From Isosphaeraceae bacterium EP7 (GTDB lineage: Bacteria > Planctomycetota > Planctomycetia > Isosphaerales > Isosphaeraceae): a stretch of 64,000 nt of DNA. Shown in pieces: positions 1-35,402 of this stretch. The DNA is taken from NCBI GenBank assembly GCA_038400315.1, contig CP151667.1:3731174-3795173 (forward strand), read 5' to 3'. Both the position numbers and the translations under genes were made by a program. Positions within the stretch are counted from its first letter, which is position 1. Every line of letters starts with the position of its first letter. The notes under the pieces are model-generated. The model did no database searches, was not told the origin of the DNA, and saw nothing but the letters and a program-made list of their open reading frames with translations.

Positions 1-1217
1 GGGCGGGGCGACCACTTGCGGAAGTCGGCGTCGCGGGCCTGGCGGTCGCGGGCGACCTCGAAGCCGGCGAGGATGAGGCAGGCGGCGGCGTTGCGCGGAT
101 TGGCCACGCGCGCCATGTTCCGCCAGGCGTTGACCGCGTCGCTGGCGTGGACGCCGATCGAGTCTCCGTGGACGCTGCCCGGAGGCTTGCCCGGAGAGGC
201 CCAACGCTCGGGGCGGCCAGCGTCGCGGAGGACGAGCTGGTTCGCGGCCAGCGAGATCGCCTCGCCGACGTCGGATGGGTCGATCCCCTCGGCCAGCGCC
301 GCGGCGACGGCGTCGGCGGCCGATGCCGGGCTCGAGTCGAAGATCGTCCCGCACATCGAGGCGACCCACTCGTCGCCGGGCTTCTTCGTGCCGGGGGAGG
401 TCCTGGGCAAGTGGTGCCGGTCGAACAGGGCGGGAAGGAGGGTGCGTGGCTCTTCGGCCTCGGCGGAGTAGCCGCCGTTGCGCTCGGCCTTGACGCAGTA
501 TCGGACCGACTGGCGGAGCATCGTGTGGGCCTGTTCCTTGCCGACGACGTCGAGCAACTCCCAGGCGCGATAGGGGAGGACGACACGGTGGACCTCGGTC
601 TTGTCCTCGACGGCGACGAGCAGGCTGTTGAAGGCCTCTTCGGGCGAGACGCCGGCGATCGCGGCGAAGGTGCGCTCGGCCCGGTCCATGTCCTTGGCGC
701 GGACGGCGTCGCGGAGGTCTTCGGCGGAATTGTGACCGGCCGAGAGCTCGCCCGGCCCGACCGTGCGCAGCACTTCCGAGGCCCGCCCGCCGTGGTCGTG
801 GATGCGTGCGGTGTTGCGGTAGAGCACCTTGATGATGGGCAGGGCCCGGCGGCTTTCGGGCAGCTCGCTCGCCATGTGCAGGGCGGGGGCGAGGGCCATC
901 ATGGTGTGGAAGCCGATGTAGTCCTCGCCGCCGAACGTCCGCGCGTTGGCCAGGGTCGCGGCCGCCACGAGCTGCCTCAGATCGGTCCCGCCGCGGATCT
1001 TGCCGATCAGGACCGGGACGAGGTCGCTGACCGCCGTCTCCTGCATCAGAGCAACGAGCGGCTCAAGCGACCCGAATGCGAGCCGCTCGCCGCCACCGCC
1101 ACCGTCCTCGTCGGCACGCGCGGGCGTAAGCCCCATGTCGATGGCCGTGCCGGAGCCGACACTTGCGACCAGCATGCCCCGCCCGACGTCTCCCAGGAAA
1201 TCTCGACGCGTACCCAT
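1..1217 (-). CDS. Tat-exported protein of unknown function (partial, 3' end outside window)
   Basis: The frame opens at an ATG at 1217 and runs leftward off the window edge, giving 405 visible codons and no stop. The N-terminus carries TRRDFLGDVGRGML followed by a hydrophobic stretch and an Ala-rich region. This matches a twin-arginine signal, so the product is probably exported folded. The rest is alanine-rich and probably helical, with scattered His residues (FHTMM, RHHLPR). I recognise no catalytic motif. Long reading frames on the opposite strand here are antisense shadows: the minus frame has the strong G/C third-position bias and uninterrupted hydrophobic patterning expected of a gene. 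Function unknown. Exported proteins of this size and N-terminus are common in Planctomycetes. Confidence 0.8.
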   Translation of the reverse strand, partial: MGTRRDFLGDVGRGMLVASVGSGTAIDMGLTPARADEDGGGGGERLAFGSLEPLVALMQETAVSDLVPVLIGKIRGGTDLRQLVAAATLANARTFGGEDYIGFHTMMALAPALHMASELPESRRALPIIKVLYRNTARIHDHGGRASEVLRTVGPGELSAGHNSAEDLRDAVRAKDMDRAERTFAAIAGVSPEEAFNSLLVAVEDKTEVHRVVLPYRAWELLDVVGKEQAHTMLRQSVRYCVKAERNGGYSAEAEEPRTLLPALFDRHHLPRTSPGTKKPGDEWVASMCGTIFDSSPASAADAVAAALAEGIDPSDVGEAISLAANQLVLRDAGRPERWASPGKPPGSVHGDSIGVHASDAVNAWRNMARVANPRNAAACLILAGFEVARDRQARDADFRKWSPR

Positions 1218-2413
1218 CGTGGTCGTCCTTTCGCCCGAATCGAGCGGGATGCTCGGCGGCTCGCTCAGGTCGCAACCGGGATTTCCCAGAACGCGACCGA
1301 GCCCGCCGCCGGCGACCTTGACCGAGTCTCTTCAACATGTATTGGACACGACCCCGGAGCCCAAGTCCAGGGGAATGATCGGAAAGTTCGTGGCCGATCG
1401 CAACGACCCGCCGCGATGTCCATCCCCGGTGTCAGGCTGCCAATCTGGCAGTTGGCTTCGTTTTCGACCTCCGATCGATGAACTGTCGCAAGTTCAGAAT
1501 GAGGAGGGTTTCCGACGAGGATGATGGATTCAATGGAACACATCTTACTCAGTCGAAATCGACTGCCATAATGGCATTTGGGTTCGTTTCGTTTTCGCGA
1601 GTCACTCGATCATGGCACAAGCCCGGACTCGCCTCGGATTTCAAGTTGAGTGACCATTGGCAAGGCCGTCTGAATTCTTCGGAACAGATGTCCGGGTGTT
1701 GCATGCGGATTTTCAACAATCCCGAGGGGCGTCGGGACGCGAGACTCGTTCGACGCGCGTGATGGCCCCGTAGATACCATCGTTCGAACGCGCGATTTCG
1801 TCCCTACTTTTCGGGATTTTTCCCGAATAGCTCAGCGATGGGGTTTATCTGCATCTTCAGGCGAAACCGGCGGTCCGGAGGCGACCCCCCACGACTTAAT
1901 CCAGGCCCAACCGCTCCGCTCGTTGCCGGGCAACGTCGCGGTTGACGAGGTGCGGTCATCGGCCGCGATGTCACCGTCTCGAACGATGACGACCGACCCG
2001 GCGGCAACCCGATCGAGTCACGCACCACTCGGATCAACGAGGTGCCGAACATGATGGGAATGTCCCCGATCACGATCCTCGCCGCGACCCCATCGAGATC
2101 GCAGGCTCGCCGTGATCGCCGTAGGAGCGTCAAAATAGGATAGTTTTAATTGACAGCTGTGATCCCTCGCTCTATTTTTGCTGCCAGGCTTGATCGGATG
2201 ACCTTCGAGTGGAGTGTTTCGATGCTCAAGCTTAAGTTCCATCTCATCGCTTTCTCCGCCATCACGATCACTTAGCTCGACAGCTGCAAGTTCTCGCCTC
2301 GCCCTGCCGCCCTTCGTCCTGGCCCTCATGAACCCGGCCCGGGTACGATCGACTTCTTCCTCCGACTCACGATCGCTCGTGGCCTCGGGGCCTGGCCCAG
2401 CGAGGATACGCCG
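1218..2413. other. Gene-poor region, possible decayed coding remnant
   Basis: No convincing gene in about 1.2 kb. Part of it (about 1480-1800) is visibly richer in A/T than the flanking genes. On the minus strand around 2125-1905 there is a stretch with gene-like codon use. It reads AARIVIGDIPIMFGTSLIRV in one frame and, after a one-base shift near 2000, continues as VVIVRDGDIAADDRTSS. This suggests a frameshifted relic of an unidentified gene. No RNA gene, terminator or repeat was recognised. Confidence 0.3.
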
Positions 2414-3040
2414 GTGATCACCCATGCCGAAACGACCTCATCCGCGAAACCCCGACGACTCCGGTTACGGCTCACGGTCCGTTCGGCCATGCTCATTTCC
2501 GCACTTGTGGCGGTCGGCTGCTGGATCTACATGGGGACGGTCAAGCGGAAGCTCGGGTTTGTCGTGATCGGCATCAAGACCCACGTCTGGCTCGATATCA
2601 TCGTCCTCGACGACGCCACAGGAACGCCGCTCCAGGGGGCCGAGGTCGAAATGCCGTGGCTCCACACGGACTGGCGAGGCCGTCCTGAGCTCCAAACCGG
2701 CGACCTCCGCAGAGAGAACACACCCGCCCACGAGATGCCGCCCCCGTACCTGACCGATGAGGGCGGGAGGGTCACGGTCATTGAGTCCGCAATCCTCGAA
2801 AGGCAGCTCAAGCACCGATTTGGAGGCCTTCTGCCCGTCGCAGGGAGCCCGGAACTCGTCTTTTTTATATTCGAAGGCGTGCGCATCAACGCACCAGGCT
2901 ACACGACCTGGGTCAACTATCTCGAAGACCTCAGGCTGGAGGATGGTCGCAACTTGATCCTCGGTTCCCGGCTTCCCATCGTGGTCCGCCTGAAGCGAGC
3001 CGAAATCGAGGCGACGTCAGCTCGCATGCCACTCCCTTAA
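2414..3040 (+). CDS. Hypothetical single-pass membrane protein
   Basis: A 208-residue frame starting at GTG 2414. It has a basic N-terminus (KPRRLRLRLTVRSAM) and one hydrophobic segment at about residues 25-42, then a periplasmic-type domain with the pattern VLDDATGTPLQGAEVEMPW. That pattern resembles the beta-sandwich carboxypeptidase-regulatory-like or Ig-like domains of surface proteins, but the match is by eye only. The C-terminal half continues the alternating beta pattern (GYTTWVNYLEDLRLEDG). No catalytic residues are recognisable. It stands alone between the gene-poor stretch and the transposase remnant, about 160 bases upstream of the latter. The start is uncertain because no strong ribosome binding site precedes the GTG. 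Confidence 0.6.
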   Translation: MITHAETTSSAKPRRLRLRLTVRSAMLISALVAVGCWIYMGTVKRKLGFVVIGIKTHVWLDIIVLDDATGTPLQGAEVEMPWLHTDWRGRPELQTGDLRRENTPAHEMPPPYLTDEGGRVTVIESAILERQLKHRFGGLLPVAGSPELVFFIFEGVRINAPGYTTWVNYLEDLRLEDGRNLILGSRLPIVVRLKRAEIEATSARMPLP

Positions 3041-3203
3041 TTCGCACTTGAACGCAACCTTGATGTATCAACGTACTCCATTCTCTCGTTGCTTTGCGGT
3101 GAGCCCCTCTAAGCTCGATTGATGCCGATTTCGGTGGGCCGCCTCGGCGGTAGCATGGGTAGTAGCACACGCTTCCCAGGCTCCCAACCGAGGGCGGCTC
3201 TCG

Positions 3204-4533
3204 ATGATTCTACCCGCCGAAGCCCGACCATTGCTTGACGCCCTCTCCCCGGTCTTCACTCGGCCGACCTTGCACCGCTTCGTCACTCTCTTCGGCTCGG
3301 CCATCCTTACCACCGGACGACGCACCGTCGCCAACATCCTTCGCTCCGCCGCCCCCCTGGCCCAGGGGCATGTCACGACCTACCAGCGGGTCCTTTCGTC
3401 CGCCGAGTTGTCCGCCCTCCACCTGGCCTGTCAACTGTGCCGCATCGTCCTGGCCCTGATCCCGGCGGATCAGGCGGTCATCCTCGTCGGCGATGATACG
3501 GTCGATGGTCATCCCGGACGCAAGGTCTACGGCAAGGCCCGGCACCGGGACCCGGTCCGATCCAGCCACGGCTACACCGCCTGGCGCTACGGCCACAAGT
3601 GGGTCGTCCTGGCCGTGCTCATGCGCTTCCCCTGGGCCAACCGCCCCTGGGCGTTGCCCGTGCTCGTGGACCTGTACCGCACAAGGAGGAGGACCAGAAG
3701 CGGCGGCGGCCCCACCGCACGCCCGCCCAGGTCATTAGCACGCGCTTGCTAGTCATGCTCTTATGGTTCCCCGATCGCCGGTTCGTCTTCGTCGGCGACT
3801 CGGGCTTCGGCACGCACGAGATGGCCCGGTTCGCGTACCGCCATCGACTTCGCCTGAGCTTGGTCAGCAAGCTCCACCCCGAGGCCAACCCGTTCGAGCC
3901 GCCCCCGGTGTACTCGGGCAAGGGGCGTCCCCCGGTGAAGGGGCCGCGTCGCCCCAAGCCGAAGCAGGCGGTGGCCGGGGCTGAGCTTCAGGTCCAGGAG
4001 GTGGCCTGGTACGGCGGGGGGAGCGAGAGGTGGGCGTGACCACCGGCGCGGGTCATTGTAACAAGGCGGGAGAGGGCCTGGTGCCGATCGTCCGGGTGTC
4101 CGTCAAGGATCGAACGGGCACGCATCGGGACGAATCCTTCTTCAGCACCGATCCGGCGATGACGGCGACGGCGACGGCGATGATCGAGGCCTATGCCGGC
4201 TGCTGGAACCCGGAGACGACCTTCCAGGAAGCTCGGTGTCTTCTCGGATTGGAGAGCACACGGGGCTGGTGCCGGCGGACGGTGCTGCGGGCCGCCCCGT
4301 GCCTGTTCGGTCTCGATACGGTGATAGCCCTGCTGGATCTGAGCTTGCCCGAGTCGAAGCGGGTGGAGTGGCCGGGCAAGGTGGGCGTGACTACCTCCGA
4401 TGCCCAGACCTGCGTGCGTCGCTGGCCGTGGCGGGAATGAGTTTTTCCACAGGCCGGCGGGGGCTTGGCCGTGGATCAACTCCCCGAGTCGCTCCACAAT
4501 GTCTTGTTCTACGCCTTGGCCCCGGTGGCGTAG
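3204..4533 (+). pseudogene. Degraded IS701-like (DDE) transposase
   Basis: Three consecutive frames together rebuild one transposase of about 440 residues. Frame one (from ATG 3204) holds TVDGHPGRKVYGKARHRDP with the first acidic residue and ends its useful reading near 3678. Frame two carries VFVGDSGFGTHEMARFAYRH with the second acidic residue. Frame three, entered at a run of six G near 4015-4020, carries GHCNKAGEGLVPI and IEAYAGCWNPETTFQEARC with the catalytic-Glu region. Frame three then meets TGA at 4438-4440 (RRWPWRE-stop) but continues sensibly to TAG at 4531 (VFPQAGGGLAVDQLPESLHN). That makes two frameshifts and one nonsense codon. I found no matching terminal inverted repeats, so the ends are undefined. 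The G-run shift could be a sequencing error, but the other two lesions argue for real decay. Confidence 0.85.
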
Positions 4534-4761
4534 CTACTGGCTTTCTGCATCAGTCGAGCTGAGGCCGTATCCGATCGGGAAAATGGGATGTCCAGTTCTC
4601 CATTTCTTGAGCCCATTGGTCGTGGGGCGCCCGTCAAGCCGGACATGATGGGTGGTCGAGACGACTTTTCCCTCCCCCCCTTCCCTCGCCGCGGTACAAT
4701 CCAGTGAAGGTGCCTGGCCCTGGGCCGGGGTGCCGCGATTGTGCGCAAGAGGGGGCCGGGG

Positions 4762-7700
4762 ATGAGCGGGACGATCGATCGGAAGCTCAAGGCGGGATTC
4801 GTGCTCGCCCTGGTCGTGCTCGTGGCGAATGCCTCGATCGCGTTCTGGGGCGTCCGGGGCATTGTCCAGTCGCATGAGTGGGTGGACCACACCCGCGAGG
4901 TGATCGGCACGCTCCAGGGCGTGGTCCTGTCGATGCGCGAGGTCGAATCGGGCCAGCGCGGCTACATCATCACGGGCGTCGAGGACCACTTGTCCCGGTT
5001 CGAGGCCGACCTCAAGTCGGTCGACGCTTCGGTCGACCGGCTCCGCGTCCTGGTGCATGACAGCCCCGAGCAGCTCGCCGCCGTCGAGGCGCTGGGCCGG
5101 CTGACGAAGCGCCGCGAGGCGATCGTCCGGATGAACCTGAATATCCGCCGCGAACAGGGGTTCGAGGAGGCGCGTGAGGCGATCTCGCGAGGGCAGGGCC
5201 TGAAGACGCTGGCGGATGTCCGCGGGCTGGTCGCCGACATCCGCCACCGGGAAGATTTGCTGCTGGCCCGCCGGACGGCCTGGGCGCGTGCGAGCGTCCT
5301 CTGGTCGCTCGCCACGTTCACGTTCGCCACGTTGCTGTCGCTGGGCTTGCTGGGGGCGGCCTATTACCTGGTTCGTCGCGAGGCGATTCTGCGGCTGAGG
5401 GCCGCCGAGAGGGTACGCTGCTCGGAGTCTCGCAAGGCCGCCGTGCTCCAGAGCGCCCCGGACGCGATCGTGACGGCCGACCACTCGGGAACGATCCTGG
5501 AATTCAACGCGGCGGCCGAACGCACGTTCGGCTATCGGCGGGACGAGGCGGTGGGCAAGGACCTGGTGGGCCTGATCCTCCGCCCATGCGACCGCGAGAA
5601 GTTCCGCGAGGACCTGCAGCGCGACGCGGCGGCCTGCCTGAAGAAGGTGCTGGGCCGGCGCGTGGAGGTCCCCGCACGCCGGTCCGACGGCACCGAGTTC
5701 CCCGCCGAGTTGGCCGTGACGGCCGTGCCGGTCGAGCATGGCCAGCCGCTGTTCACCGCCTACATCCGCGACATCACCGAGCGTAATCGGACCGTGCAGG
5801 CCATCCGCGACAGCGAGGAGCAGGTCAGGCTGCTGCTGGAGTCGACGGGCGAGGGGATCTACGGCGTCGACACCGACGGCCGCTGCACCTTCTGCAACCC
5901 GGCGGCCCTGAAGATCCTGGGCTACACCGAAGCCGGCGAGCTGCTGGGCCGCGACATGCACTCGGCGATCCATCACACCAACGCCGACGGCTCGCCGAAG
6001 CCCGCCGATCTGTGCCCCATCAAGCTGACGCTGGAGGGTGGCGGCCACAGCCACACCGACGACGACACCTTCTGGAAGGCCGACGGAACGAGCTTTCCCG
6101 TCGAATATCGGACCTCGCCGATGTTCCGCGACGGCAAGCCGATCGGCGGCGTGGTCGCCTTCGCCGACATCAGCCGCCGCAAGGCGGACGAGGAGGCGAG
6201 GCGCGAGAGCGAGGAGCGGTTCCGGGTCATGGCCGACTCGATCCCGCAGCTCGCCTGGATGTGCCGGCCCGACGGCTACATCTACTGGTACAACCAGCGC
6301 TGGTACGAGTACACCGGCACGACCGCCGAGGAGATGGGCGGCTGGGGCTGGAAGACGGTGCAGGACCCCGAGGAGCTGCCCCGGGTCCTGGCGAAGTTCG
6401 ACGCGGCGCTCGCGTCGGGCGTCCCCTGGGAAGATAGCTTCCCGCTCCGCCGGTTCGACGGGGAGATGCGCTGGCACCTGTCCCGCGCCCTGCCTGTGCG
6501 CGACGAGCGCGGGAAGATCGTCCGCTGGTTCGGCACCAACACCGACGTGACCGAGCAGCGCATCGTGTCGGAAGCCCTGCGCGAGGCGAAGGAGCAGGCC
6601 GAGGGGGCCAACCGGTCCAAGAGCACCTTCCTGGCCAACATGAGCCACGAGCTGCGCACTCCCCTGAACGCGATCATCGGCTACAGCGAGATGCTGCTGG
6701 AAGAGGCCGAGGACGACGGTAAGGAGGCGGCGGCGTCCGACCTGAAGAAGATCAGGATGTCCGGCAAGCACCTGCTCCAGCTCATCAACGACGTGCTCGA
6801 CCTCTCCAAGATCGAGGCGGGCAAGGCGGAGATGTTCCTGGAGACGTTCGAGGTGGCCGAGATGATCCACGGCGTGGTCGACACGATCCGCCCGCTGATG
6901 GAGCAGAACGGCAACGTGATCGAGGTGACCTGCCCGCCCGGCCTGGGCTCGATGCACGCCGACCTGACGAAGGTCAGGCAGTCGCTGCTGAACCTGCTGA
7001 GCAACGCCGCCAAGTTCACCGAGAAGGGGAAGGTCGGCCTGAAGGCGACGGCCCTGCCCGGTGGCGGCGGTTTCTCGATGGAGATCTCCGACAGCGGCAT
7101 CGGCATGACGCCCGAGCAGCTTGGCAAGCTCTTCCAGCCGTTCTCGCAGGCCGACGCCTCGACCACTCGGAAGTATGGCGGCACCGGCCTTGGCCTGACG
7201 ATCACGAGGCGCTTCTGCAGGATGATGGGCGGCGACGTCACGGCGCGCAGCGAGCTCGGCCTGGGCTCGACCTTCGAGATCCGCCTGCCCGCGTCGGTCG
7301 TCGCTCCTGCCGCCGACCCGGAGGTGAGCGGGCCGCCCGCCAGGCAATTGCCCGAGGCGGGCCCCGGAAGCCTCGTCCTGGTCATCGACGACGATCCGGT
7401 CGTGCACGACCTGCTGCGTCGGACCCTGGAGAAAGAGGGCTTCCGCGTCGTCTGCGCCCGGGGCGGGCCCGAGGGGATCGCCCTGGCCAGGGACATCCGC
7501 CCCGACGTCATCACCCTGGACGTCTTGATGCCCGGGATGGATGGCTGGTCGGTGCTGACGGCCCTGAAGGCCGAGCCGGAGCTGGCCGACACCCCCGTCA
7601 TCATGCTCACGATGATCGACGACAAGAACCTGGGCTATGCGCTCGGGGCGTCGGACTACCTGACCAAGCCGATCGACCGCGAGCGGCTCTCCCTGATCCT

Positions 7701-8181
7701 GTCGAAGTATCGCCGCCGGATCGCTTCGTCGCACGTGGCGCTCGTCGTCGAGGATGAGCCGATGAGCCGTCAACTGGCGCGAGACATGCTTGAGCATGAC
7801 AACTGGACGGTGATCGAGGCGGAGAACGGCCGGGTTGCGCTCGAGAAGTTGGAAGAGACCCACGTCGACCTGATCCTCCTCGACCTGATGATGCCGGAGA
7901 TGGACGGATTCGCCTTCATGGCCGAGGTGCGCAAGCGCGAGGCCTGGCACGGCATCCCCGTGCTGGTGTTGACGGCCAAAGACCTGACGGAGGAAGATCG
8001 GCGGCGGCTCAACGGCGACGTGCTAGGCTACTTACGCAAAGGTGAAACCTCTCGCGAGGACCTGCTGCGACAGTTGCGGCGCGAGGTCTGCTCGAGCCTG
8101 CGCCGGAAACCGCCGCCCCTCCCCGCGCCCCCGCCGGTGGCCGTGGCATTGCCCAGGCCGATGGCCATTCCCCTCGGCTAG
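4762..8181 (+). CDS. Hybrid sensor histidine kinase with CHASE3, three PAS and two receiver domains
   Basis: Membrane sensor of 1139 residues. Order: TM helix near the N-terminus, CHASE3-type extracytoplasmic helical domain (about 35-180), second TM (about 190-212), three PAS domains (about 220-345, 350-475, 485-610), HisKA with phospho-acceptor His629 in [11 protein letters not shown], and HATPase with N-box [17 protein letters not shown] and GGTGLGL. Two receiver domains follow, with phospho-acceptors Asp920 ([12 protein letters not shown]) and Asp1041 ([12 protein letters not shown]). ATG 4762 is preferred over GTG 4741 because a GGGGCCGGGG stretch lies just before it. Downstream are two single-receiver proteins, suggesting a His-Asp relay. 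No Hpt domain or DNA-binding output is visible, so the final output is elsewhere. The signal sensed is unknown. Confidence 0.95.
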
Positions 8182-8239
8182 TTCCCGAGATCACCCCGAC
8201 CCAGCCAGACCCAACACGGACGCGAGCAGGCACCGACCC

Positions 8240-8623
8240 ATGACCAAGATCCTCCTCGTCGAGGACAATGAGCTGAACCGCGACATGCTCTCCAGGCGAC
8301 TGGAGCGCAAGGGCTACCACGTCGAGGCAGCCGGCGACGGGATTCAGGGCGTCGAGATGGCGCTCGCCGGCTCATTCGATCTGATTCTCATGGACATGAG
8401 CCTGCCCAAGCTGGACGGCTGGGAGGCCACCCGACGGCTGCGCACCGACGACCGGACCAGGACCACGCCGATCATCGCCCTGACGGCCCACGCCATGGCC
8501 GGAGACCGCGAGAAGGCCATCGAGGCCGGCTGCGACGACTACGACAGCAAGCCGGTCGAGTTCCCCCGCCTGCTCCAGAAGATCGAAGAACAGTTGAAGG
8601 TCAAGGCCGAAGCCAAGCCCTGA
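8240..8623 (+). CDS. Single-domain response regulator (DivK/CheY-like)
   Basis: A 127-residue receiver domain with nothing attached. The acidic pocket is ILLVEDN (Glu8, Asp9), the phospho-acceptor is Asp52 in LILMDMSLPKLDGWE, the switch Thr is in IIALTAHAM, and the conserved Lys is 104 in DSKPVEF. ATG 8240 begins the domain exactly; the upstream in-frame extension is not domain-like. It lies 58 bases after the hybrid kinase and 66 bases before a second, closely similar regulator. Single receivers of this type relay phosphate or regulate by protein contact, since they have no output domain. The context points to the adjacent kinase as phosphodonor, which is inference. Confidence 0.93.
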   Translation: MTKILLVEDNELNRDMLSRRLERKGYHVEAAGDGIQGVEMALAGSFDLILMDMSLPKLDGWEATRRLRTDDRTRTTPIIALTAHAMAGDREKAIEAGCDDYDSKPVEFPRLLQKIEEQLKVKAEAKP

Positions 8624-8689
8624 ACAGGGACGATGGGCGGACGGACGGAAGCAGGCCGAGGCCCGCGGGCCCGCCGCAGAGGAGACGCG

Positions 8690-9067
8690 ATGTTCAAGAT
8701 CCTGGTGGCCGAAGACAATCCCGAGAACTGGGAGATCCTCTCGCGCCGCCTGACCCGCAGGGGCTACGAGGTGGCCCACGCGAGCGACGGCCGGCAGGCG
8801 GTGGACATGGCGGTCTCGGAATCGCCCGACCTGATCCTGATGGATATGAACATGCCCGTGCTCGACGGATGGGAGGCCACCCGCGCCATCCGCGCCCGCG
8901 CCGAGACGGCCCGTATCCCCATCATCGCCGTCACGGCGCACGGCATGAGCGGCGACCGCGACAAGGTCATTGCCGCAGGCTGCGAAGACCATCACACCAA
9001 GCCCGTGGAGCTGACCCAGTTGCTGGCCCAGATCGAGGCCTTGCTGAGCAAGGTCGCACAGAGCTGA
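8690..9067 (+). CDS. Second single-domain response regulator (DivK/CheY-like)
   Basis: A 125-residue receiver domain, clearly a relative of the one just upstream: both share ILSRRL/MLSRRL after the acidic pocket and DLILMDM...LDGWEATR around Asp52. The pocket is ILVAEDN, the switch Thr is in IIAVTAHGM, and the conserved Lys is in HHTKPVEL. ATG 8690 is preceded by AGAGGAGA at a suitable distance. It probably arose by tandem duplication and is probably co-transcribed with the hybrid kinase. The pocket residue change (VEDN versus AEDN) and different C-terminal helices suggest the two are not redundant. No output domain. Confidence 0.93.
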   Translation: MFKILVAEDNPENWEILSRRLTRRGYEVAHASDGRQAVDMAVSESPDLILMDMNMPVLDGWEATRAIRARAETARIPIIAVTAHGMSGDRDKVIAAGCEDHHTKPVELTQLLAQIEALLSKVAQS

Positions 9068-9091
9068 GCGGCGCCGGGGGATGATCTCGGG

Positions 9092-10540
9092 TCAGCGGCG
9101 AATCCGGTTGCCGAGCACGAAGCCGAGCAGGCCGATGAGGGCGACGCCCAGGAAGACGTGGACTCCCACGAGCGTCAGGGCCAGGTCGCTGGCCGGCAGC
9201 AGGCGGATCCCGATGCTGCCGGTGGTCATCGCCAGCATGCTGAAGATGGCCAGGTCGACCGGGTTTCTGGTTGTCAGGAAGTGCGGGCCTGTCGGGGTCT
9301 CGTGCTCGCGCGCCACGCTGCCGGTGACCCCGTAGATGATGATGAAGATGAAATAGAGCATCAGGACCGAGCCGAAGACCCGGGGGATGCTCTCGCCGTA
9401 ATCGCAGATCCACTCGACCGACTGGTCGGTGATGTAGGTGGCGTAGGACCGGATGGCCTGCGGCCAGTCGTGCGCGGCGAGGGCCGCTTTCCCGCGGTTC
9501 CTGGCCAGCAGCTTCTGCATCCGCCGCCGCTTGCGGTAGGCCCAGGCCGAGGCGTCGTGGTCGCCCTGATTGCCGAAGGCGCGTTCCAGGACGAGGTAGC
9601 CCTTGCGAGCCTGGTCGTAGACCTCGGCCCGCTCCTCGCCGATGGCGTCGCCGATCTGCTCGCGGCCGAAGCGGGCGCCATCGAGGTTGGCGCCGCTGAG
9701 GTGTACGCCCGAGATGTCGCAGACGGTCAGGTCGAGCTCCTGGAGCTTGGAATCTCGCAGGATCGCGCCGCCGAAGTTGGCGCCCAGCAGCTCGGCCTCG
9801 CGCAGATCCGAGCCCCTGAGGTTGGCCTCGCGCAGGTCGGTGCTCTTGAGGATGGCGCCCCGTAGGTTCGCGCCGCTGAGGTCCGACCTGCGCAGGTCGG
9901 CCTCGTCGAACCTCGCGTCGCGGAGGTCGCTCTTGGTGAGCGTCGCTCCGCCGAGGTTGGCGCCCCAGAGGTCGACACGCTGGAGGTCTGCCTCCTCGAG
10001 CGTGGCCCCGCTGAGGTCGGCAAACCGCAGGCTCGCGCCGTCGAGCTCGGCCTCCTCGAGCATGGCCCCTCGGAGGTCGGCCTTGCCCAGGATGGCGCCG
10101 GAGAGATGGGCCGCGGCCAGGTCGGCATCCTTGAGGTTGGCCTCATCGAGCCGGGCATTCTCCAGCATCGCCTCGCCCAGGCGTGCCCCCTCCAGGTTGG
10201 ACCCGCTCAGGCTGGCCCGGCGGAGGTTGGCCTTGCGAAGGCTGGCGCCCCGGAGGTCGGCGTTGTGCAGCACCGCACCGCCTGTCGCCGGGTCGAACCA
10301 GGGGGCCGAGGCGCGGCGACCTCCCAGGCGTTCGAGCGCTTCGGGGCCGAGGTCGACGCCGTCGAGCATGGCGGGCTTGCCGTCGCGGGCCGGGAGTACC
10401 AGGCGGTTCCTGGGATGCTCCTCGATCAGGCGCAGGACGATCTCGGCGCGTTCAGCGGGCGTCGCCGCGGCCAGGGCCTCGTAGACCTCCGGCGGCGGCC
10501 TATCCGCGTCCGGGGGCGCGTCGGCCTGTTGGATCGTCAC
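9092..10540 (-). CDS. Pentapeptide-repeat protein fused to a two-TM pore-like domain
   Basis: A 482-residue protein read from GTG 10540. Residues about 91-300 form a nearly unbroken run of around 40 pentapeptides of the A(D/N)LXX type in exact ten-residue phase (for example NADLRGASLRKANLRRAS). Such repeats fold as a right-handed square beta-helix. A charged linker follows (AYRKRRRMQKLLARN). Then come a TM helix (about 388-406), a re-entrant-like segment with MTTGSIGIRLLP (about 437-449) and a second TM helix (about 452-476). The helix-loop-helix layout resembles two-TM potassium channels, but the TVGYG filter is absent. It converges with the second response regulator (24-base gap). The start is uncertain: an ATG further upstream in frame gives a low-complexity Arg/Ser-rich extension that I reject. 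Confidence 0.85.
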   Translation of the reverse strand: MTIQQADAPPDADRPPPEVYEALAAATPAERAEIVLRLIEEHPRNRLVLPARDGKPAMLDGVDLGPEALERLGGRRASAPWFDPATGGAVLHNADLRGASLRKANLRRASLSGSNLEGARLGEAMLENARLDEANLKDADLAAAHLSGAILGKADLRGAMLEEAELDGASLRFADLSGATLEEADLQRVDLWGANLGGATLTKSDLRDARFDEADLRRSDLSGANLRGAILKSTDLREANLRGSDLREAELLGANFGGAILRDSKLQELDLTVCDISGVHLSGANLDGARFGREQIGDAIGEERAEVYDQARKGYLVLERAFGNQGDHDASAWAYRKRRRMQKLLARNRGKAALAAHDWPQAIRSYATYITDQSVEWICDYGESIPRVFGSVLMLYFIFIIIYGVTGSVAREHETPTGPHFLTTRNPVDLAIFSMLAMTTGSIGIRLLPASDLALTLVGVHVFLGVALIGLLGFVLGNRIRR

Positions 10541-10670
10541 GTTGCGGCTCGCTTGGGAGGAGGAATTGCGGCCCGATCTTCGGTCTGATACGGACAAACC
10601 CCGGCCATGGTTGGCCCGCAGCCTACGAGAATCAAGATCCACCTTTCCTGGGGAGCATCTCCGCACGATT

Positions 10671-12272
10671 TCAGCGTGGCGCAGTCGCCGACGGCTTCGA
10701 GGCCAGCGCGGGGGCGTCCGAGTCGGCCGGCGCGTACGGGAAGGGCTTCTTCTGGCCGACGCAGCGGTAGAGGTCGACGGTCCGCACCGGCGAACCCCGA
10801 CGACTGATCTGGAAGGAGCCGATCGGCTCGATCCGGCGGAACCAGCGATCCAGGTAGCCGGGCTCGGTCGACCGCCGGTTGATCGCCATGAAGATGCCGT
10901 CGCGGCCGACATAGTCTTCCGGGCGGCTCCAGTAGCCGAATCCTCGCGAATTGGGCGCCTGGTTGTAGCAGAGCACCGGCTTGTTCGACCTTCCTCGCAA
11001 GGCGTAGGCGAGCTGCCCCCCCCGATACCAGCTGCTGGCGATCAGGAACGTCTCGGGGTCATCGAGCAGGCCGCGCCGGCTCAACTCGTCGGCCACGCGG
11101 TCCCAGCCGATCATGTCGAGCGTCGGGTCGGCCGACGAGGCGACCAGGCCCATCGAGGTCGACTCATCCGCGCCTTTGCTCTGGAAGATCCCCATCCTCA
11201 GGTGGGCGAGCACCGCCAGGACGATGACCAGCGGCAGCGCGGCCATCAGACCCACCTCGCGCCGCATCCGCGCGGGCCTCGCCTCCGATCTCGCGGCCCA
11301 GGCGGCCCCCACGGCCGGGAACAGCGACAGGAATCCGACCAGGGCCCAGTGCGGCAGCACCGGCTTCAGGCACGAGATCGCCGCGAACAGCCCCAGCGGA
11401 AGGACCGCCAGGCAGGCCAGGAACTTCCTGAGGCGAGACTCGGCGTCCGTGGAAGGGCCGGCCTTCAGGCAGCGCACCGCTCCGGCCAGGGCCAGGCAGA
11501 GCGGCAGGAAGATCCAGGGGAACAGGTAGAGCGCCTGCAGGCCGATGGCCTTGGCCAGCATGTCCGGCCTTGGCGTCAGGCTGCCGACGGCCCGCCCCCC
11601 CTGGAACGCGATCGAGGCCCAGCCGTGCTCGGCGTTCCAGATCAGGACGGGCGAGAACAGCAGGAGCCCCAGCGCCGCGGCCAGGTAGGGCCCCGGGCGT
11701 TTGAGCCAGCTGCGCGCCGAGGGCTCGACCAGGATGTAGAGCAGGGTCCCCATCGGCAGCAGCGCCGCGTGGTACTTGCTCAGCATCCCGCCTCCCCAGG
11801 CCAGGCCGACCCAGGCCCAGGGGAGCAGGCTCGTTCGGGGCGATTCCAGCGCCGCGGCCAGGCGGTCGAGGGTCAGCAGCCAGAAGAACAGGAGCGGGCC
11901 GTCGGGCAGGACGAAGGTCGACGCCGCGGCGGTGTGGTAGGCGCTCACATTCAGGGCGAGCGCCGCATAGAAGCCCGCCCAGGGGCCGTAAGCACGGCTC
12001 GCCAGCCGGGCCAGCAGCCAGGTGGAGCCGGCGAACATGACGATGAAGCCCAGCCGCAGCATGATTTCTGACGCATTGCCCCCGCCGAGCAGGGGGCCGA
12101 CCGCCGCGACCAGGGCCAGCATCGGCGGGTGGTCGAAGTAGCTCAACGCGGGGTGGACGGTGTACAGGTAGTGGTACGCCTCGTCGTTGCCCAGGCCGAG
12201 ATTGGCGGCCCAGGCGAGCCGGGCCAGGCCCGAGGCCGCGATCAGCAGGAACAGGCAGCGACTCGGCGTCAT
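10671..12272 (-). CDS. GT39/PMT-family integral membrane glycosyltransferase
   Basis: A 533-residue polytopic membrane protein. The N-terminal TM helix is followed by the first periplasmic loop with GNDEAYHY (Asp30-Glu31), the usual site of the catalytic acid in PMT/ArnT-type enzymes. FDHPPM and SKYHAALLP follow, then about ten further hydrophobic segments and a soluble periplasmic C-terminal domain. Family members transfer a sugar from a polyprenyl-phosphate donor to protein or lipid A on the outer face of the inner membrane. ATG 12272 places the first TM helix at the N-terminus; a longer in-frame start would add a low-complexity leader. It is divergent from the phosphatase gene. Acceptor and sugar cannot be told from sequence. 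Confidence 0.9.
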   Translation of the reverse strand: MTPSRCLFLLIAASGLARLAWAANLGLGNDEAYHYLYTVHPALSYFDHPPMLALVAAVGPLLGGGNASEIMLRLGFIVMFAGSTWLLARLASRAYGPWAGFYAALALNVSAYHTAAASTFVLPDGPLLFFWLLTLDRLAAALESPRTSLLPWAWVGLAWGGGMLSKYHAALLPMGTLLYILVEPSARSWLKRPGPYLAAALGLLLFSPVLIWNAEHGWASIAFQGGRAVGSLTPRPDMLAKAIGLQALYLFPWIFLPLCLALAGAVRCLKAGPSTDAESRLRKFLACLAVLPLGLFAAISCLKPVLPHWALVGFLSLFPAVGAAWAARSEARPARMRREVGLMAALPLVIVLAVLAHLRMGIFQSKGADESTSMGLVASSADPTLDMIGWDRVADELSRRGLLDDPETFLIASSWYRGGQLAYALRGRSNKPVLCYNQAPNSRGFGYWSRPEDYVGRDGIFMAINRRSTEPGYLDRWFRRIEPIGSFQISRRGSPVRTVDLYRCVGQKKPFPYAPADSDAPALASKPSATAPR

Positions 12273-29534: not shown

Positions 29535-29699
29535 TCTTGCGCGCCGTGATTGCGTCCGCTCGTCCCGACCGCTCCTATGGCCGGGTTGATGGGGCGTTTT
29601 CTCATTGTCGCCGGATGGATCTTGGTGGATGATGCCGCGGCTCGCGGGCATCGGCCAAGGTGGGCGGATGGACACTTGCGAGAAGGGGGGGACGCTCCA

Positions 29700-31343
29700 A
29701 TGTCCTTCGAAGTTCAGGGCGAGACGCCGCCGACGCGATGGCAGCGATATCGGATGCTCATGAAGGTCGTCGAGCTGAGGCTCAGGTTCATCGCCCTGAT
29801 GGCGGTTACCGGGCTCGTCTTCGGCTACTGGGACACGATCTGGAACCACTACGAGAAGTGGAACCGGCCGACGATGCAGGCCGCTCAGGCGGGCCTGGGC
29901 CTGGAATATTACTGCCCGATGCATCCGAACGTGGTCCGGCCCACGCCCGACTCGTGCCCGATTTGCGGCATGCCCCTGTCGAGCCGCAAGGTGGGCAAGG
30001 CGGAGCAACTTCCCGAGGGGGTGACGGCCCGCCTGCAACTGGCCCCACTGCGCATCGCCCAGGCCGGCGTGCGCACGGTCGAGGTGGGCTATTCCAGCAT
30101 GGAGCAGACCATCACGACGGTCGGCTCGGTCGATTTCGATGAGCGACGCAGGGCACGGATCGCGTCGCGTCTGAAGGGGATGGCGCGGGTCGAATCCCTG
30201 GCCGTCAACTTCAACGGCACCCGCGTCAAGGCGGGCGAGCCGCTGGCCGAGCTCTACTCGACCGAGCTCTATCAAGGCATCCAGGAATTGCTCCTCGCCC
30301 ATCGATCGGCCTCGAAGCCTGGCGCACGGCCGATGCTCGGGATGGGCGATCCCGGCGAGGCCGCGCGATCGGCGGGCGAGAAGCTCAGGCGCTGGGGCCT
30401 GTCCTCCGCACAGGTCGAAGCCATCGCGGCCTCGGGCAAGGCGGTCGATCGGATGCCAATCCTGTCGCCGATCGGCGGCGTGGTCATCCGCAAGGCGGTC
30501 GTGGAAGGGCAGTACGTGGCCGAGGGAGAGACGATGTTCGAGGTGGCCGACCTCGGGCATGTCTGGGTGAAGGCGCAAGTGTTCGAAGATCAGTTCGCCC
30601 TGGTGCGAGTCGGACAGTCGGTCCGGGCGACGGTCGAGGCCTATCCCGGCCGGGTCTTCTCAGGCACGGTCGCGTTCATCGACCCTGTGCTCGACGTGGC
30701 CACCCGCACTGTGGGCGTGCGCTACGACCTGGAGAACGCCGACGAGGCGCTGCGGCCGGGGATGTTCGCCACGGTGACCCTGAAGGTGCCCGTCGCCGGC
30801 CGACCCGGACAGCGGGTCGCGAAAACCACCCCCCGCGATGCCACGGCCGAGCAGCAAGAGATCTGCCCTGTGACCACGGCCAAGCTCGGCTCGATGGGCA
30901 AGCCGATCCCCGTCCAGCTTGCCCAGGGCAAGGTCTGGATTTGCTGCGAAGGGTGCAGCGATAAGCTCCAGAATGCGCCGGCGAAGTATCTGGCCAGGCT
31001 GGCCCCCGCGCCCGTGGACGGCGTGCTGTCCGTGCCAGACTCGGCCGTGATCGACACGGGTGCGATGCAGGTCGTCTACGTCGAGGCCGCGCCGGGCGTC
31101 TACGAAGGGCGCAAGGTCGTCCTCGGCCCGCGCTCCGGCGACCGTTTCCCGGTCCTCGAAGGCCTCCACCCGGGCGATGTTGTCGTCTCCGCCGGCGCCT
31201 TCCTGATCGACGCCGAGACCCGGCTCGACCCGACCTCCGCCGGGACGCCCGCCGAGGCGCCGGCCAAGACCGAGACGCCGCACACGCATGCGCCCGCGTC
31301 GACGCGTTCGGCCTCGGCCGCGGACGCCCCCGTCCGACGCTGA
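29700..31343 (+). CDS. CusB-like RND efflux periplasmic adaptor with two metal-site modules
   Basis: A 547-residue membrane-fusion protein. Cytoplasmic leader, TM anchor (about 28-44), then a heavy-metal-binding module YYCPMHPNVV...CPICGMPL (Cys72, His75, Cys86, Cys89). The adaptor core follows: first beta-barrel/lipoyl half GVRTVEVGYSSMEQTITTVG, a helical hairpin (about 180-240), second lipoyl half ILSPIGGVVIRKAVVEGQYV, and barrel LGHVWVKAQVFEDQFALV. Unusually, a second Cys module (EICPV at 388-391 through WICCEGC, Cys415, 416, 419) is inserted before the membrane-proximal domain (VVYVEAAPGVYEGRKVVLGP). It looks like a YHS domain. It is followed 60 bases later by the pump gene. Substrate class by family: Cu+/Ag+ or other soft/divalent metals. 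Confidence 0.93.
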   Translation: MSFEVQGETPPTRWQRYRMLMKVVELRLRFIALMAVTGLVFGYWDTIWNHYEKWNRPTMQAAQAGLGLEYYCPMHPNVVRPTPDSCPICGMPLSSRKVGKAEQLPEGVTARLQLAPLRIAQAGVRTVEVGYSSMEQTITTVGSVDFDERRRARIASRLKGMARVESLAVNFNGTRVKAGEPLAELYSTELYQGIQELLLAHRSASKPGARPMLGMGDPGEAARSAGEKLRRWGLSSAQVEAIAASGKAVDRMPILSPIGGVVIRKAVVEGQYVAEGETMFEVADLGHVWVKAQVFEDQFALVRVGQSVRATVEAYPGRVFSGTVAFIDPVLDVATRTVGVRYDLENADEALRPGMFATVTLKVPVAGRPGQRVAKTTPRDATAEQQEICPVTTAKLGSMGKPIPVQLAQGKVWICCEGCSDKLQNAPAKYLARLAPAPVDGVLSVPDSAVIDTGAMQVVYVEAAPGVYEGRKVVLGPRSGDRFPVLEGLHPGDVVVSAGAFLIDAETRLDPTSAGTPAEAPAKTETPHTHAPASTRSASAADAPVRR

Positions 31344-31403: not shown

Positions 31404-34400
31404 ATGATCGAGTCCATCATTGAGTGGTCGATCCGCAACCGGTTCATCGTGATCGTGGCGGCCCTGGTCGTCGCGGTCGCTGGGACCCGGGCGATGCTGA
31501 CGATGCCCGTCGACGCGATTCCCGACCTGTCCGAGAACCAGGTCCTGGTCTTCACCGACTGGATGGGGCGGAGCCCTCAGGAGATCGAGGATCAGGTCAC
31601 CTATCCTCTGTCGGTCAACCTGCAAGGGCTGGCCGGGGTGAAGGTGGTCCGGTCGTCGAGCGAGTTCAACTTCTCGATGATCAGCATCATCTTCGATGAT
31701 GCGACCGACTACTACTTCGCCCGTCAACGCGTGCTTGAACGACTGTCGATCGCGTCGACCTTTTTACCGCAGGGGGTGACGCCCTACCTGGCGCCCGACG
31801 CGACGGCGCTGGGGCAGATCTTCTGGTACACCGTCGAGGGGGACGGCCGCGACCTGGGCGAGCTGCGCTCGATCCAGGATTGGTTCGTGCGGTATCAGCT
31901 CAACAGCGTGCCGGGCGTGGCCGAGGTGGCGTCGGTGGGCGGCGCCCCGCGCGAGTATCAGGTGGACCTGGACCCGAACAAGCTGCGCAGCTACGGCATC
32001 AGCCTGGGCGAGGTCTATTCGGCCGTCAGCCGGTCGAACTCGGCGGTCGGAGGCCGGGTCCTTCATATGGGGAATGCGGAATACCTGATCCGCTCGGTGG
32101 GCTGGATCCGCGACCGCCGCGACCTGGAGAACACGGTCGTCGCCCAGCGCGGCGGGGTGCCCGTCGAGGTCAAGAACCTGGGAACCGTGCAGATCGGACC
32201 CGCATTCCGCCGCGGCGTGCTGGAGAAGGACGGCAAGGAGGCCGTGGGCGGCGTGGTGCTGATGCGGCACGGCGAGAACCCACTGGCGGTCACCAGGCGG
32301 GTCAAGGAGAAGATCACGTCGCTTCAGGCCGGCCTGCCCGAGGGGGTGCGGATCGTCCCGTTCTATGATCGGACACCCCTGATCAATAAGGCCCTGGAGA
32401 CGGTCGGCGAGGCGGTCATCCAGGAGCTGGCCATCTGCACGATCGCCATCCTCCTGATCATGGGCCACCTGGGCGGTGCGCTCATCGTGTCGGTGACGCT
32501 GCCGCTGGCGGTCCTGTTCAGCTTCCTGATGATGCGGCTGACCGGCGTGCCGTCGAACATCATGAGCCTGGCGGGCATCGCGATCAGCGTGGGCATCCTG
32601 GAGGACCAGGCGGTCGTGATGACCGAGAACGCCGCGCACCACCTGACGAAGCACTTCAAGGGGGAGCCGATTCGCGGTGACATCCGCGAGCTGGTCATCC
32701 CGGCCTGCCGGATGGTGGGCCGGCCCATCTTCTTCTCGGTGCTGATCACGATCCTCTCATTTCTTCCCGTGTTCGCGCTGACGGGCCGCGAAGGGAAGAT
32801 GTTCCACCCGCTGGCATTCACCAAGACATTTGCACTGATCGGCGTGGCCATCCTGTCGATCACGCTGGTTCCCGCGCTCATCCCGATCTTCCTCAAGGGA
32901 CGCATCAAGACCGAGGACGAGAGCTGGCTGGTGCGGACGATGACCGCCGTCTTCAAGCCGATGCTCGCCTGGCTGATGGATCGACCCCGCCTGGTCATCT
33001 GGCTGTTCGCCTGCATCCTGGGGGCCGGTTTTCTCGCCTCGACGCGGCTGGGACGCGAGTTCATGCCTCCCCTGGACGAGGGGAGCATCCTGGAGATGCC
33101 CACCAGCGTGCCGCGGATGTCGGTGCTTCAGGCCGCCGAGGACCTGAAAGTGCGCGACGCCGTCCTGCGGTCGTTCCCCGAAGTGGTGCAGGTCGTGGGC
33201 AAGGCGGGCCGGGCGGAGACCGCCACCGACCCGGCGCCTCTGGACATGATCGAGACGGTGATCAACCTGCGCGACCGCGAGGCCTGGCCCAAGCGGAAGC
33301 TCGAATATGCGGATGCGACGACGCAAGTTTCGGCGGTACTCGACGCACTCGTCGCCCGTGGCCTGCTCATCCCGACGCTGCGAGACGCCGGGGCGGCCCG
33401 CGATTCTCTGGTCAACGACGCGGCGATGGCGGTCTCGCAGAAGGTGGACACATCCTTGCGCGAGCTGACGGCGTTGCGGATGGCCGAGTTCCGCCCCGAG
33501 CTGGGCAGGGCCCTGGTCGGCGACGCCGTCGACGGCCTGCTCTCGCGTCTGGCCTTGGGCTCGATCGCCAAGCCGCTCGACTCCAAGGCCAGGGCGGAAC
33601 TCATCGACGCCCTGGCCCCGACCCATGCGAGCCGCCTGGCCCTGGAACCGCTGCCGGATGACGTGACGGCCCTGGTGCGCGACGCCGCAAAACGGCTGGT
33701 GTCATCGGGAATCTTGCGTGATTCGGGCGACCTACTCGCCCCGCCGCCGACGGTGCTGGAGAGCGCCTCGGAGACCCTGGGAGAGTGGCTCGATTCGCCC
33801 AGGGCCGACCTGTTCACGCGGCTGACCGACGAACTCGCCGAGTCGCACGACCGGCGTTCGGCCGAGCGGACGAAGGCCCTAAACTGGGAGCTGTTTGACC
33901 GCGCCGTCGGCGTCGCCACCTGGGGGGCGATCGAAGAATTGATGCGACTTGGAGGCGACCGCAAGCTGGTCGCTCGGCCGGCCGACGCAGAGGAGCTGCG
34001 ATCGCTCAGGCCCTCGCTGGAAGGGCCATTCTCGAAGCGGCTGCTCCTCTGGCGTAAGACCAAGAAGGACCTGCTCGACGAGATGAACTCGGCATTGCAG
34101 ATGCCCGGCTGGGGGAACATCTTCACTCAGCCGATCATTAACCGGATCGACATGCTCTCGACCGGGGTGCGCACGCCGATCGGGATCAAGGTTTTCGGCT
34201 CGAACCTGGCGGAGATCCAGCGGGTTGGGCAAGAGGTGGCCAAGGCCGTGCGACCGGTGCGCGGTGCGGCCGACGTGGTGGCCGATCAGGTGGTGGGCAA
34301 GGGCTATGTCGAGATCGACATCGATCGCGAGAAGGCCGCGCGATACGGCATCCGGGTCGGCGACATCCAGGACGTCGTCGAGGTCGCGCTCGGCGGCAAG

Positions 34401-35402
34401 CCGGTGACGACCACCGTCGAGGGGCGCGAGCGTTACCCGGTCCGCGTCCGGTATGCGCGGGCGTATCGCGATGACGTGGAATCACTCAAGCGAATCCTAA
34501 TCGCCGGGCGCGGAGGTCCCTCAAGCGAAGGGGGGGCCGAGCCCGGGATGGGGATGCAACCGGCCGCGGCGGAAGCGGGGCCCGCCGCTCCGGCGCAGAT
34601 CCCGCTGGCGCAGGTGGCCGAGATCCGGCTGGTGGAAGGCCCCTCGATGATCAAGAGCGAGAACGGCCTGCTCCGCGCTTATGTGCAACTGAGCGTCCGT
34701 GGACGCGACGAGGTGGGCTTCGTCGAGGAGGCACGCCGCGTCGTCGAGCGCGAGGTCAAGCTGCCGCAGGGAATGTACCTGGAGTGGTCGGGTACGTTCG
34801 AGCATCAGCTACGCGCCCGCAAGACGCTGCAAATCGTCTTCCCCGCGGTGCTGGCGGTCATCGTCCTGATCCTCTATCTGACCTATCGCAGCTGGATCGA
34901 CGCCCTGCTGATGATGACCAGCGTGCTGGGGGCCCTGGCCGGCGGGGCCATCTTCCAGTGGGCGCTGGGGTACAACTTCAGCGTGGCCGTCTGGGTGGGC
35001 TACATCGCCTGCTTCGGCATGGCGGTCGAGACGGGGATCGTCATGCTCGTCTACTTGCGCGAGGCGATCGAGGAGCGTGGGGGACTGGCGGCGATCGCCT
35101 CGGTTGCCGACCTGCGCGAGGCGATCCTGGAGGGGGCAATCCATCGGCTGCGGCCGAAGCTGCTGACGGAAGGGACGACGATCATCTCGATCGCGCCGAT
35201 GCTCTGGGCCAGCGGCGTGGGGGCCGAGGTCATCAAGCCGATGGCGGCCCCCGTGCTGGGCGGCCTGCTCATCGCCGACGAAGTGATCGACGTCTTCCTG
35301 CCCGTGCTCTATTTCTCGGCGACCAAGTGGCGCTGGAGGAGGCTGCACGGCCTGAGCTCGTCCGAGGACCATGTCCGCGTGCTTCCAACCGAGGTCATCT
35401 GA
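31404..35402 (+). CDS. CusA/CzcA-family heavy-metal RND pump with large periplasmic insertion
   Basis: A 1332-residue inner-membrane proton/metal antiporter; family members are usually about 1020-1070. Landmarks: N-terminal IEWSIRNRFIVIVAAL, the first porter domain (MPVDAIPDLSENQVLVFTDW), TM4 with AISVGILEDQAVVMTENA (Asp matching the CusA proton-relay Asp), and GREFMPPLDEGSILEMPT. The second half resumes at RIDMLSTGVRTPIGIKVFG and ends in five TM segments. Between NLRDREAWP (about residue 625) and MPGWGNIFTQPIINR (about 898) lie roughly 270 residues, where CusA has about 20. The extra part is helical and charged. A short Ala/Pro loop (about 1045-1065) is also extra. ATG 31404 is chosen because it places TM1 at the N-terminus. 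Confidence 0.93.
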   Translation: MIESIIEWSIRNRFIVIVAALVVAVAGTRAMLTMPVDAIPDLSENQVLVFTDWMGRSPQEIEDQVTYPLSVNLQGLAGVKVVRSSSEFNFSMISIIFDDATDYYFARQRVLERLSIASTFLPQGVTPYLAPDATALGQIFWYTVEGDGRDLGELRSIQDWFVRYQLNSVPGVAEVASVGGAPREYQVDLDPNKLRSYGISLGEVYSAVSRSNSAVGGRVLHMGNAEYLIRSVGWIRDRRDLENTVVAQRGGVPVEVKNLGTVQIGPAFRRGVLEKDGKEAVGGVVLMRHGENPLAVTRRVKEKITSLQAGLPEGVRIVPFYDRTPLINKALETVGEAVIQELAICTIAILLIMGHLGGALIVSVTLPLAVLFSFLMMRLTGVPSNIMSLAGIAISVGILEDQAVVMTENAAHHLTKHFKGEPIRGDIRELVIPACRMVGRPIFFSVLITILSFLPVFALTGREGKMFHPLAFTKTFALIGVAILSITLVPALIPIFLKGRIKTEDESWLVRTMTAVFKPMLAWLMDRPRLVIWLFACILGAGFLASTRLGREFMPPLDEGSILEMPTSVPRMSVLQAAEDLKVRDAVLRSFPEVVQVVGKAGRAETATDPAPLDMIETVINLRDREAWPKRKLEYADATTQVSAVLDALVARGLLIPTLRDAGAARDSLVNDAAMAVSQKVDTSLRELTALRMAEFRPELGRALVGDAVDGLLSRLALGSIAKPLDSKARAELIDALAPTHASRLALEPLPDDVTALVRDAAKRLVSSGILRDSGDLLAPPPTVLESASETLGEWLDSPRADLFTRLTDELAESHDRRSAERTKALNWELFDRAVGVATWGAIEELMRLGGDRKLVARPADAEELRSLRPSLEGPFSKRLLLWRKTKKDLLDEMNSALQMPGWGNIFTQPIINRIDMLSTGVRTPIGIKVFGSNLAEIQRVGQEVAKAVRPVRGAADVVADQVVGKGYVEIDIDREKAARYGIRVGDIQDVVEVALGGKPVTTTVEGRERYPVRVRYARAYRDDVESLKRILIAGRGGPSSEGGAEPGMGMQPAAAEAGPAAPAQIPLAQVAEIRLVEGPSMIKSENGLLRAYVQLSVRGRDEVGFVEEARRVVEREVKLPQGMYLEWSGTFEHQLRARKTLQIVFPAVLAVIVLILYLTYRSWIDALLMMTSVLGALAGGAIFQWALGYNFSVAVWVGYIACFGMAVETGIVMLVYLREAIEERGGLAAIASVADLREAILEGAIHRLRPKLLTEGTTIISIAPMLWASGVGAEVIKPMAAPVLGGLLIADEVIDVFLPVLYFSATKWRWRRLHGLSSSEDHVRVLPTEVI

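Follow-up and report, generated by a model that had tools for sequence, protein, structure and literature searches.

A conserved, predicted helical domain inserted in the PC1 porter subdomain of Cu-type CusA pumps of some Planctomycetota

The window, the 64,000-nucleotide stretch of DNA from Isosphaeraceae bacterium EP7 that was analysed here, carries a gene for a CusA-type pump and, directly upstream, a gene for its cognate adaptor (Table 1). CusA serves as the model system of copper and silver export. The pump ORF scored 1015.5 bits against TIGR00914 (cut-off 701.45), which places it in the CusA/CzcA (HME) RND family. It contains a long insert, which an initial annotation had described as lying in an open frame between CusA/CzcA-like flanks. 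Both descriptions were confirmed. The ORF is a single uninterrupted frame through the insert, and phmmer aligned residues 1-629 and 886-1303 with E. coli CusA and nothing between. TIGR00914 and ACR_tran each matched the ORF in two separate stretches, and the two ACR_tran pieces were also found on either side of the insert in a genome search. The flank motifs NLRDREAWP, MPGWGNIFTQP and RIDMLSTGV start at 33264, 34101 and 34143. The distance from EAWP to MPGWG is 270 residues, compared to about 19 in CusA, so the expansion from about 20 to about 270 residues noted initially was also borne out; 256 window residues stand opposite three CusA residues.

Table 1. Features of the adaptor and pump genes (window positions; residue numbers are those of the pump).
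Feature	Position	Strand	Basis or remark
Cognate CusB-type adaptor, ORF from TTG (putative start), HMBD near N-terminus	29550..31343	+	HlyD_D23 8.5e-70, HMBD 4.1e-9
Adaptor linker, 83 residues, Cys motif CPVT...CCEGC	30777..31025	+	after barrel-sandwich match
CusA-type (HME) RND pump with insert, 1332 aa	31404..35402	+	TIGR00914 and three-Met/Glu Cu site
Cu-site span M565, M615, E617, M917	33096..34154	+	both sides of insert
N-side neck WPKRKLE, residues 628-634	33285..33305	+	3.40 bits per column; short strand in both models
Extra domain, residues 630-885 (about 253 more than E. coli CusA)	33291..34058	+	break in CusA alignment
Long helix 1, residues 663-715 (53 residues)	33390..33548	+	insert model
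Possible internal repeat, copy 1, residues 703-750	33510..33653	+	half-vs-half profile alignment
Long helix 2, residues 803-852 (50 residues)	33810..33959	+	insert model
Possible internal repeat, copy 2, residues 837-885	33912..34058	+	same half-vs-half profile alignment
C-side neck LLLWRKT, residues 880-886	34041..34061	+	3.19 bits per column; short strand in both models
PC1 helix 2 of pump, residues 887-898	34062..34097	+	CusA alignment resumes here

Codon use in the insert is gene-like, as had been claimed. The codon score was best in the reading frame (-3.78; -4.09 to -4.80 in the other five frames) and third-position GC was 0.84, compared to 0.91 and 0.88 in the pump flanks. The insert lay in frame within a long ORF in 41/41 of the first relatives fetched, and among the matches listed the relatives' ORFs aligned with the pump flanks on both sides of it. 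An intein or intron was considered and rejected on the grounds of the open frame, conservation across lineages and the lack of a Pfam family on the window insert.

Window residues M565, M615, E617 and M917 correspond to E. coli M573, M623, E625 and M672, which are named as the Cu(I) ligands of CusA in the available text of PMC8092243. All four were kept in 42/42 rows of the pump alignment, assigning these pumps to the Cu/Ag branch, and in a separate set of 71 pump-adaptor pairs Met occupied the M917 column in 41/42 carriers (pump-adaptor systems whose pump loop at the insert site is at least 240 residues). In the 16 CzcA-type pumps of the comparison these positions read H or Q, V, D and E, and the loop spans 43-86 residues; in this set, therefore, the insert is seen only on Cu-type pumps. 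Besides the pump frame, the Cu(I) site and an adjoining adaptor gene, the window pump shares the proton-relay residue D405 with E. coli CusA (of the CusCBA system). It differs in its extra PC1 residues and in the Met relay, which was compared for the window pump only: M403, M486, M501, M271 and M755 are replaced by L, L, I, F and P; M391 and M410 are retained.

The joint at which the insert leaves the pump is placed, by alignment and by model, between strand 3 and helix 2 of PC1, the porter subdomain that bears the Cu-binding residues. The naming of strands follows the topology in the part of PMC8277102 available to us. In a model of residues 548-1093 the insert helices reappeared at high confidence and the pump part was poor (mean pLDDT 76.3, pTM 0.62). 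Strands at model positions 47-57 and 66-75 before the insert were taken as PC1 strands 2 and 3, and a helix at 340-351 after it as helix 2. The periplasmic porter location first proposed was thus borne out. This location also bears on the suggestion that the domain covers the PC1/PC2 cleft as a lid or gate and limits periplasmic metal entry. The domain emerges from PC1, which carries the three Met ligands, and PC2 swings against PC1 when the cleft opens (PMC8092243, available text), but the joint is about 14 residues past the M623 equivalent in sequence and beyond the end of strand 3, and we regard a lid as improbable.

Extra domains within the porter module of RND-like proteins have precedents in the SecDF P1 head, NPC1, PTCH1 and the hopanoid transporters. 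The available part of PMC8277102 gives three insertion points: the tip between strands 2 and 3, which is that of the NPC1, PTCH1 and hopanoid-transporter inserts, a hairpin that connects strand 1 with helix 1, and, in SecDF, a point after helix 2. The window insert enters at a different point from SecDF and the strand 2-strand 3 inserts, and the strand 3-helix 2 joint of PC1 is missing from the list in that part of the source. The insert therefore adds an insertion point to those given for porter modules in the consulted part of this 2021 review, and does so in bacteria whose envelope is unusual.

Modelled together with 43 relatives by AlphaFold2, the insert gave a confident prediction (pLDDT 91.5, pTM 0.83), with helices at 8-24, 36-88, 100-120, 124-140, 157-169, 176-225 and 242-252 in the numbering of the model and short strands near both ends. 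The strands coincide with the two necks, which are better conserved than the body elements (1.7-2.5 bits per column). W628, R631, R686 and E829 were invariant in the 44-row insert alignment. The helical character noted in the initial annotation was thus upheld, and the disordered, unconserved linker that it had weighed against a module was not what we found; the insert is predicted to be folded and is conserved. Because the two long helices would each measure about 75-80 Å (1.5 Å per residue), the insert is probably a stalk.

Alignment of a profile of the first half of the insert with one of the second half gave a score of 30.2 over 48 columns, at an HHalign probability of only 51%. Scores as high as 30.2 did not occur in 150 controls with permuted columns (12.2 ± 2.5) or in 150 with permuted blocks (14.3 ± 3.3, maximum 28.4). 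This suggests an old internal duplication within the insert, as judged from the profiles.

The window insert alone matched nothing in Pfam, NCBIfam or the PDB sequences. Single members gave weak Pfam hits (DarP, TetR_C_43 and others, E values of 0.0018-0.1); these were scattered over 25 families, each in at most 3/44 members, and were taken as chance, as were two PDB profile matches with E values of 0.58 and 0.59. Fold comparison with the PDB gave no match with E ≤ 0.001. A second look, which covered Foldseek's top chains only, reached a VIA Z of at best 6.8 (97 residues), a value that helical models can also give as noise; among the chains compared the modelled insert has no clear fold counterpart. 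A description of the insert was not found in the titles and abstract starts listed by searches of open-licence literature, and the available portions of PMC8092243, PMC6975555, PMC10872679 and PMC8277102 make no mention of it.

The survey of planctomycete homologues that had been proposed was carried out at two levels. The insert was present in 37/45 genomes of the host's family, the host genome included, which is more than chance. In a phylum sample of 392 genomes it was detected in at least 19 by single sequence and at least 21 by profile, both lower bounds because at most six candidates were scored per genome; two of the 21 are the host genome and one family member. Genome G198 has a degenerate insert yet is absent from the profile matches. 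A scan of 84,980 species with two peptide patterns yielded 48 insert loci. The titles of all 48 are planctomycete and include Singulisphaera acidiphila, Paludisphaera soli, Tautonia sociabilis and Phycisphaerae. Both patterns were planctomycete-derived and recovered 24/41 known carrier loci (a lower bound given the different genome sets), which leaves absence from other phyla unproven. Two inserts had no match in 72,556 plasmid records, and 0/73 pattern matches on viral contigs were confirmed as the insert. Within these non-exhaustive scans the domain was found only in Planctomycetota, and the same insert did not appear in RND pumps of other phyla; its wide occurrence there was what the initial annotation had named as speaking against its reading.

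A maximum-likelihood tree was built from 51 pumps over 1004 columns with the insert left out, and clade support values are those attached to the splits in the original tree file. The 35 pumps with long or shortened inserts formed one clade (support 100), made up of 32 pumps with a loop of at least 240 residues and the shortened pumps of L179, L178 and the minus strand of L082. Since the shortened pumps are nested within, the 32 long-loop pumps do not form a clade by themselves. The sister group of the 35 (support 100) holds five insert-lacking planctomycete CusA pumps (three copies in L187, and L189 and L190), which share the Cu site and the upstream adaptor gene with the window pump and differ from it in having a 42-residue loop and no insert. 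The insert profile found both ends of the insert in the three shortened pumps; the middle is lost. The simplest reading of the tree and alignments is a single gain with later shortening. Alignment, prediction and tree show a genuine domain of Cu-type pumps that is conserved, specific to one clade and confidently predicted to fold.

Several other variants were seen at this site. L180, L182, L183 and L184 have small inserts of 22-27 residues. In L217, which is outside the tree, the pump at 4332-7784 has a 149-residue loop with a weak insert-profile match and the adaptor lacks a Cys linker; this loop may be a separate insertion. L039 and L050, the same stretch of one genome (G125:C193), have about 100 extra residues after the first helix of the insert. 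L082 (Planctomycetales bacterium 71-10) has two adjacent, opposed pumps of the carrier clade (3298-7998, plus strand; 8035-12168, minus strand), one with a long insert and the other with a shortened, diverged one. In L187 the three CusA genes without insert stand in tandem (1166-11460, plus strand); copies 2 and 3 differ by dN 0.045 and dS 0.176.

The insert is under purifying selection that is weaker than on the pump, and it evolves faster. In L057/L084 (Singulisphaera), the closest carrier pair among those listed, dN/dS was 0.116 in the insert and 0.050 elsewhere; in L079/L059 the values were 0.292 and 0.177 for the rest of the pump. In both pairs the insert had a two- to threefold higher dN than the remainder of the pump. 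Most of the pairs listed are saturated, and in distant saturated ones dN/dS of the insert was often near or above 1 (for example, 1.09 in L072/L086). Such rates might be expected of a tolerated passenger with little function at a permissive loop, as might the range of loop lengths among the 51 pumps (42 to 396 residues) and the loss of large parts of the insert in three pumps of the carrier clade. A passenger is nevertheless quite improbable given the dN/dS of 0.116 in the closest listed pair, the invariance of, for instance, R686 and E829 across the 44 rows, the confident predicted fold and the retention of the insert across deep lineages.

The initial annotation had offered metal capture as one function of the insert, and this part of it was not supported. 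Over the 44 rows the insert contains 0.09% Cys, 1.3% His and 2.1% Met, and this scarcity makes capture by the insert unlikely. Its place in PC1 would suit a domain that captures metal and feeds the cleft, and within the body 93% of rows have Met 675 and 55% have His 741; Met 675 is the one widely conserved Met column. Weighed against the composition, these points leave this function highly improbable.

Partner docking by the insert is plausible, and here the adaptor is informative. In the available text of PMC6975555, the membrane-proximal domain of the adaptor in CusBA interacts mainly with PC1 and the adaptor termini contact the PC1/PC2 cleft. The window adaptor has, after its barrel-sandwich match, a Cys-bearing linker whose Pfam matches, to YHS and zinc-ribbon families, all stayed below threshold. 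The C-terminal part that follows the linker is presumably the membrane-proximal domain, with borders placed by general adaptor architecture.

Adaptors were compared for loci that have a 900-aa pump ORF and, no more than 1.5 kb away, a 300-aa adaptor ORF; 92 loci yielded 71 such pump-adaptor pairs. The pump loop was at least 240 residues in 42 pairs (carriers), under 100 in 25 and intermediate in four (L178, L179, L217 and L188, the last because a contig end cuts the loop). An adaptor linker with at least two Cys was present in 39/42 carriers vs 4/25 systems without insert, and the median linker was 137 vs 10 residues; the short linker of L050 reflects an adaptor split across two ORFs. The 25 include the 16 CzcA-type systems. 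With these left out, the Cys linker was present in 39/42 carriers vs 4/9 Cu-type systems without insert (Fisher p 0.0024, a value that ignores the relatedness of the non-independent carriers and follows cut-offs set after data inspection). Relatives of the window adaptor have HMBD arrays (the L043 adaptor as a whole has five HMBD stretches) or, as in L049, a piece of about 200 residues that contains four Cys and matches DUF3347 below threshold.

The Cys linker also occurs in the insert-lacking near relatives L187, L189, L180 and L184, and the adaptors of carriers L081 and L088 and of the short-insert L179 have no linker Cys. The linker is therefore probably older than the insert. Insert and linker are loosely associated, and the linker is not tied to the insert.

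From the published PC1 contacts of CusB and the enlarged Cys linker of most carrier adaptors, we infer that the insert is an adaptor docking arm that aids Cu(I) handover. We give this reading, which also takes in the confident fold, the place in PC1, the single gain, the purifying selection, the conserved neck, the kept ends of shortened inserts and the intact Cu site, a probability of roughly 40%. Alignment, prediction and tree indicate that a clade of planctomycete Cu(I)/Ag(I)-type CusA pumps once gained an all-helical accessory domain in the strand 3-helix 2 loop of PC1, where it hangs from its conserved neck with short strands. According to the proposal, the domain would dock the adaptor, keeping it and its metal-binding linker beside the PC1/PC2 cleft, and Cu(I) would reach the three-Met site with less reliance on the Met relay, five residues of which are replaced in the window pump.

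The same long, stalk-like helices and conserved neck would also suit an arm that acts independently of the adaptor, bracing the trimer or positioning the pump in the envelope through a neighbouring protomer, peptidoglycan or another envelope part. The middle of the insert is gone in the shortened forms, and the insert is kept in L081 and L088 even though their adaptors have no Cys linker. We consider such a brace possible, if somewhat unlikely.

The docking arm can also be taken further, as a previously undescribed, duplication-built domain at an unlisted insertion point that would serve as a receptor arm for metal-loaded adaptor linkers, giving Planctomycetota a specific pump-adaptor relay in place of the trans-membrane Met relay. 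We regard this extended version as doubtful. To our knowledge, how metal passes from adaptor to pump is not settled. Here a conserved additional domain sits on the subdomain that brings adaptor and metal together, and the adaptor beside it often has an extra metal-binding linker; this natural variant allows the question of handover to be tested.

The remaining observations concern the surroundings of the pump. No TolC gene was found in the window between 27275 and 39203 with a profile from carrier loci; one lies near the pump in 28/48 carrier loci of the pattern scan. Neighbours of the pump operon are genes for a DegT-type aminotransferase, CbiX, OpcA and G6PD. A second small insertion relative to CusA lies at 34509-34598 of the window (residues ~1036-1065), a low-complexity Gly/Ala/Pro loop with the sequence GMGMQP. 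A GMGG motif is kept there in the consensus of the pump alignment, and the loop is perhaps a Met-bearing flexible one. The host genome (7.2 Mb) has many RND pumps and, by profile search, a single copy of the insert. One of its other pumps (G000:C1:6133622-6137206, an open frame of 1329 aa) matches ACR_tran in three pieces and may have extra stretches at other places.
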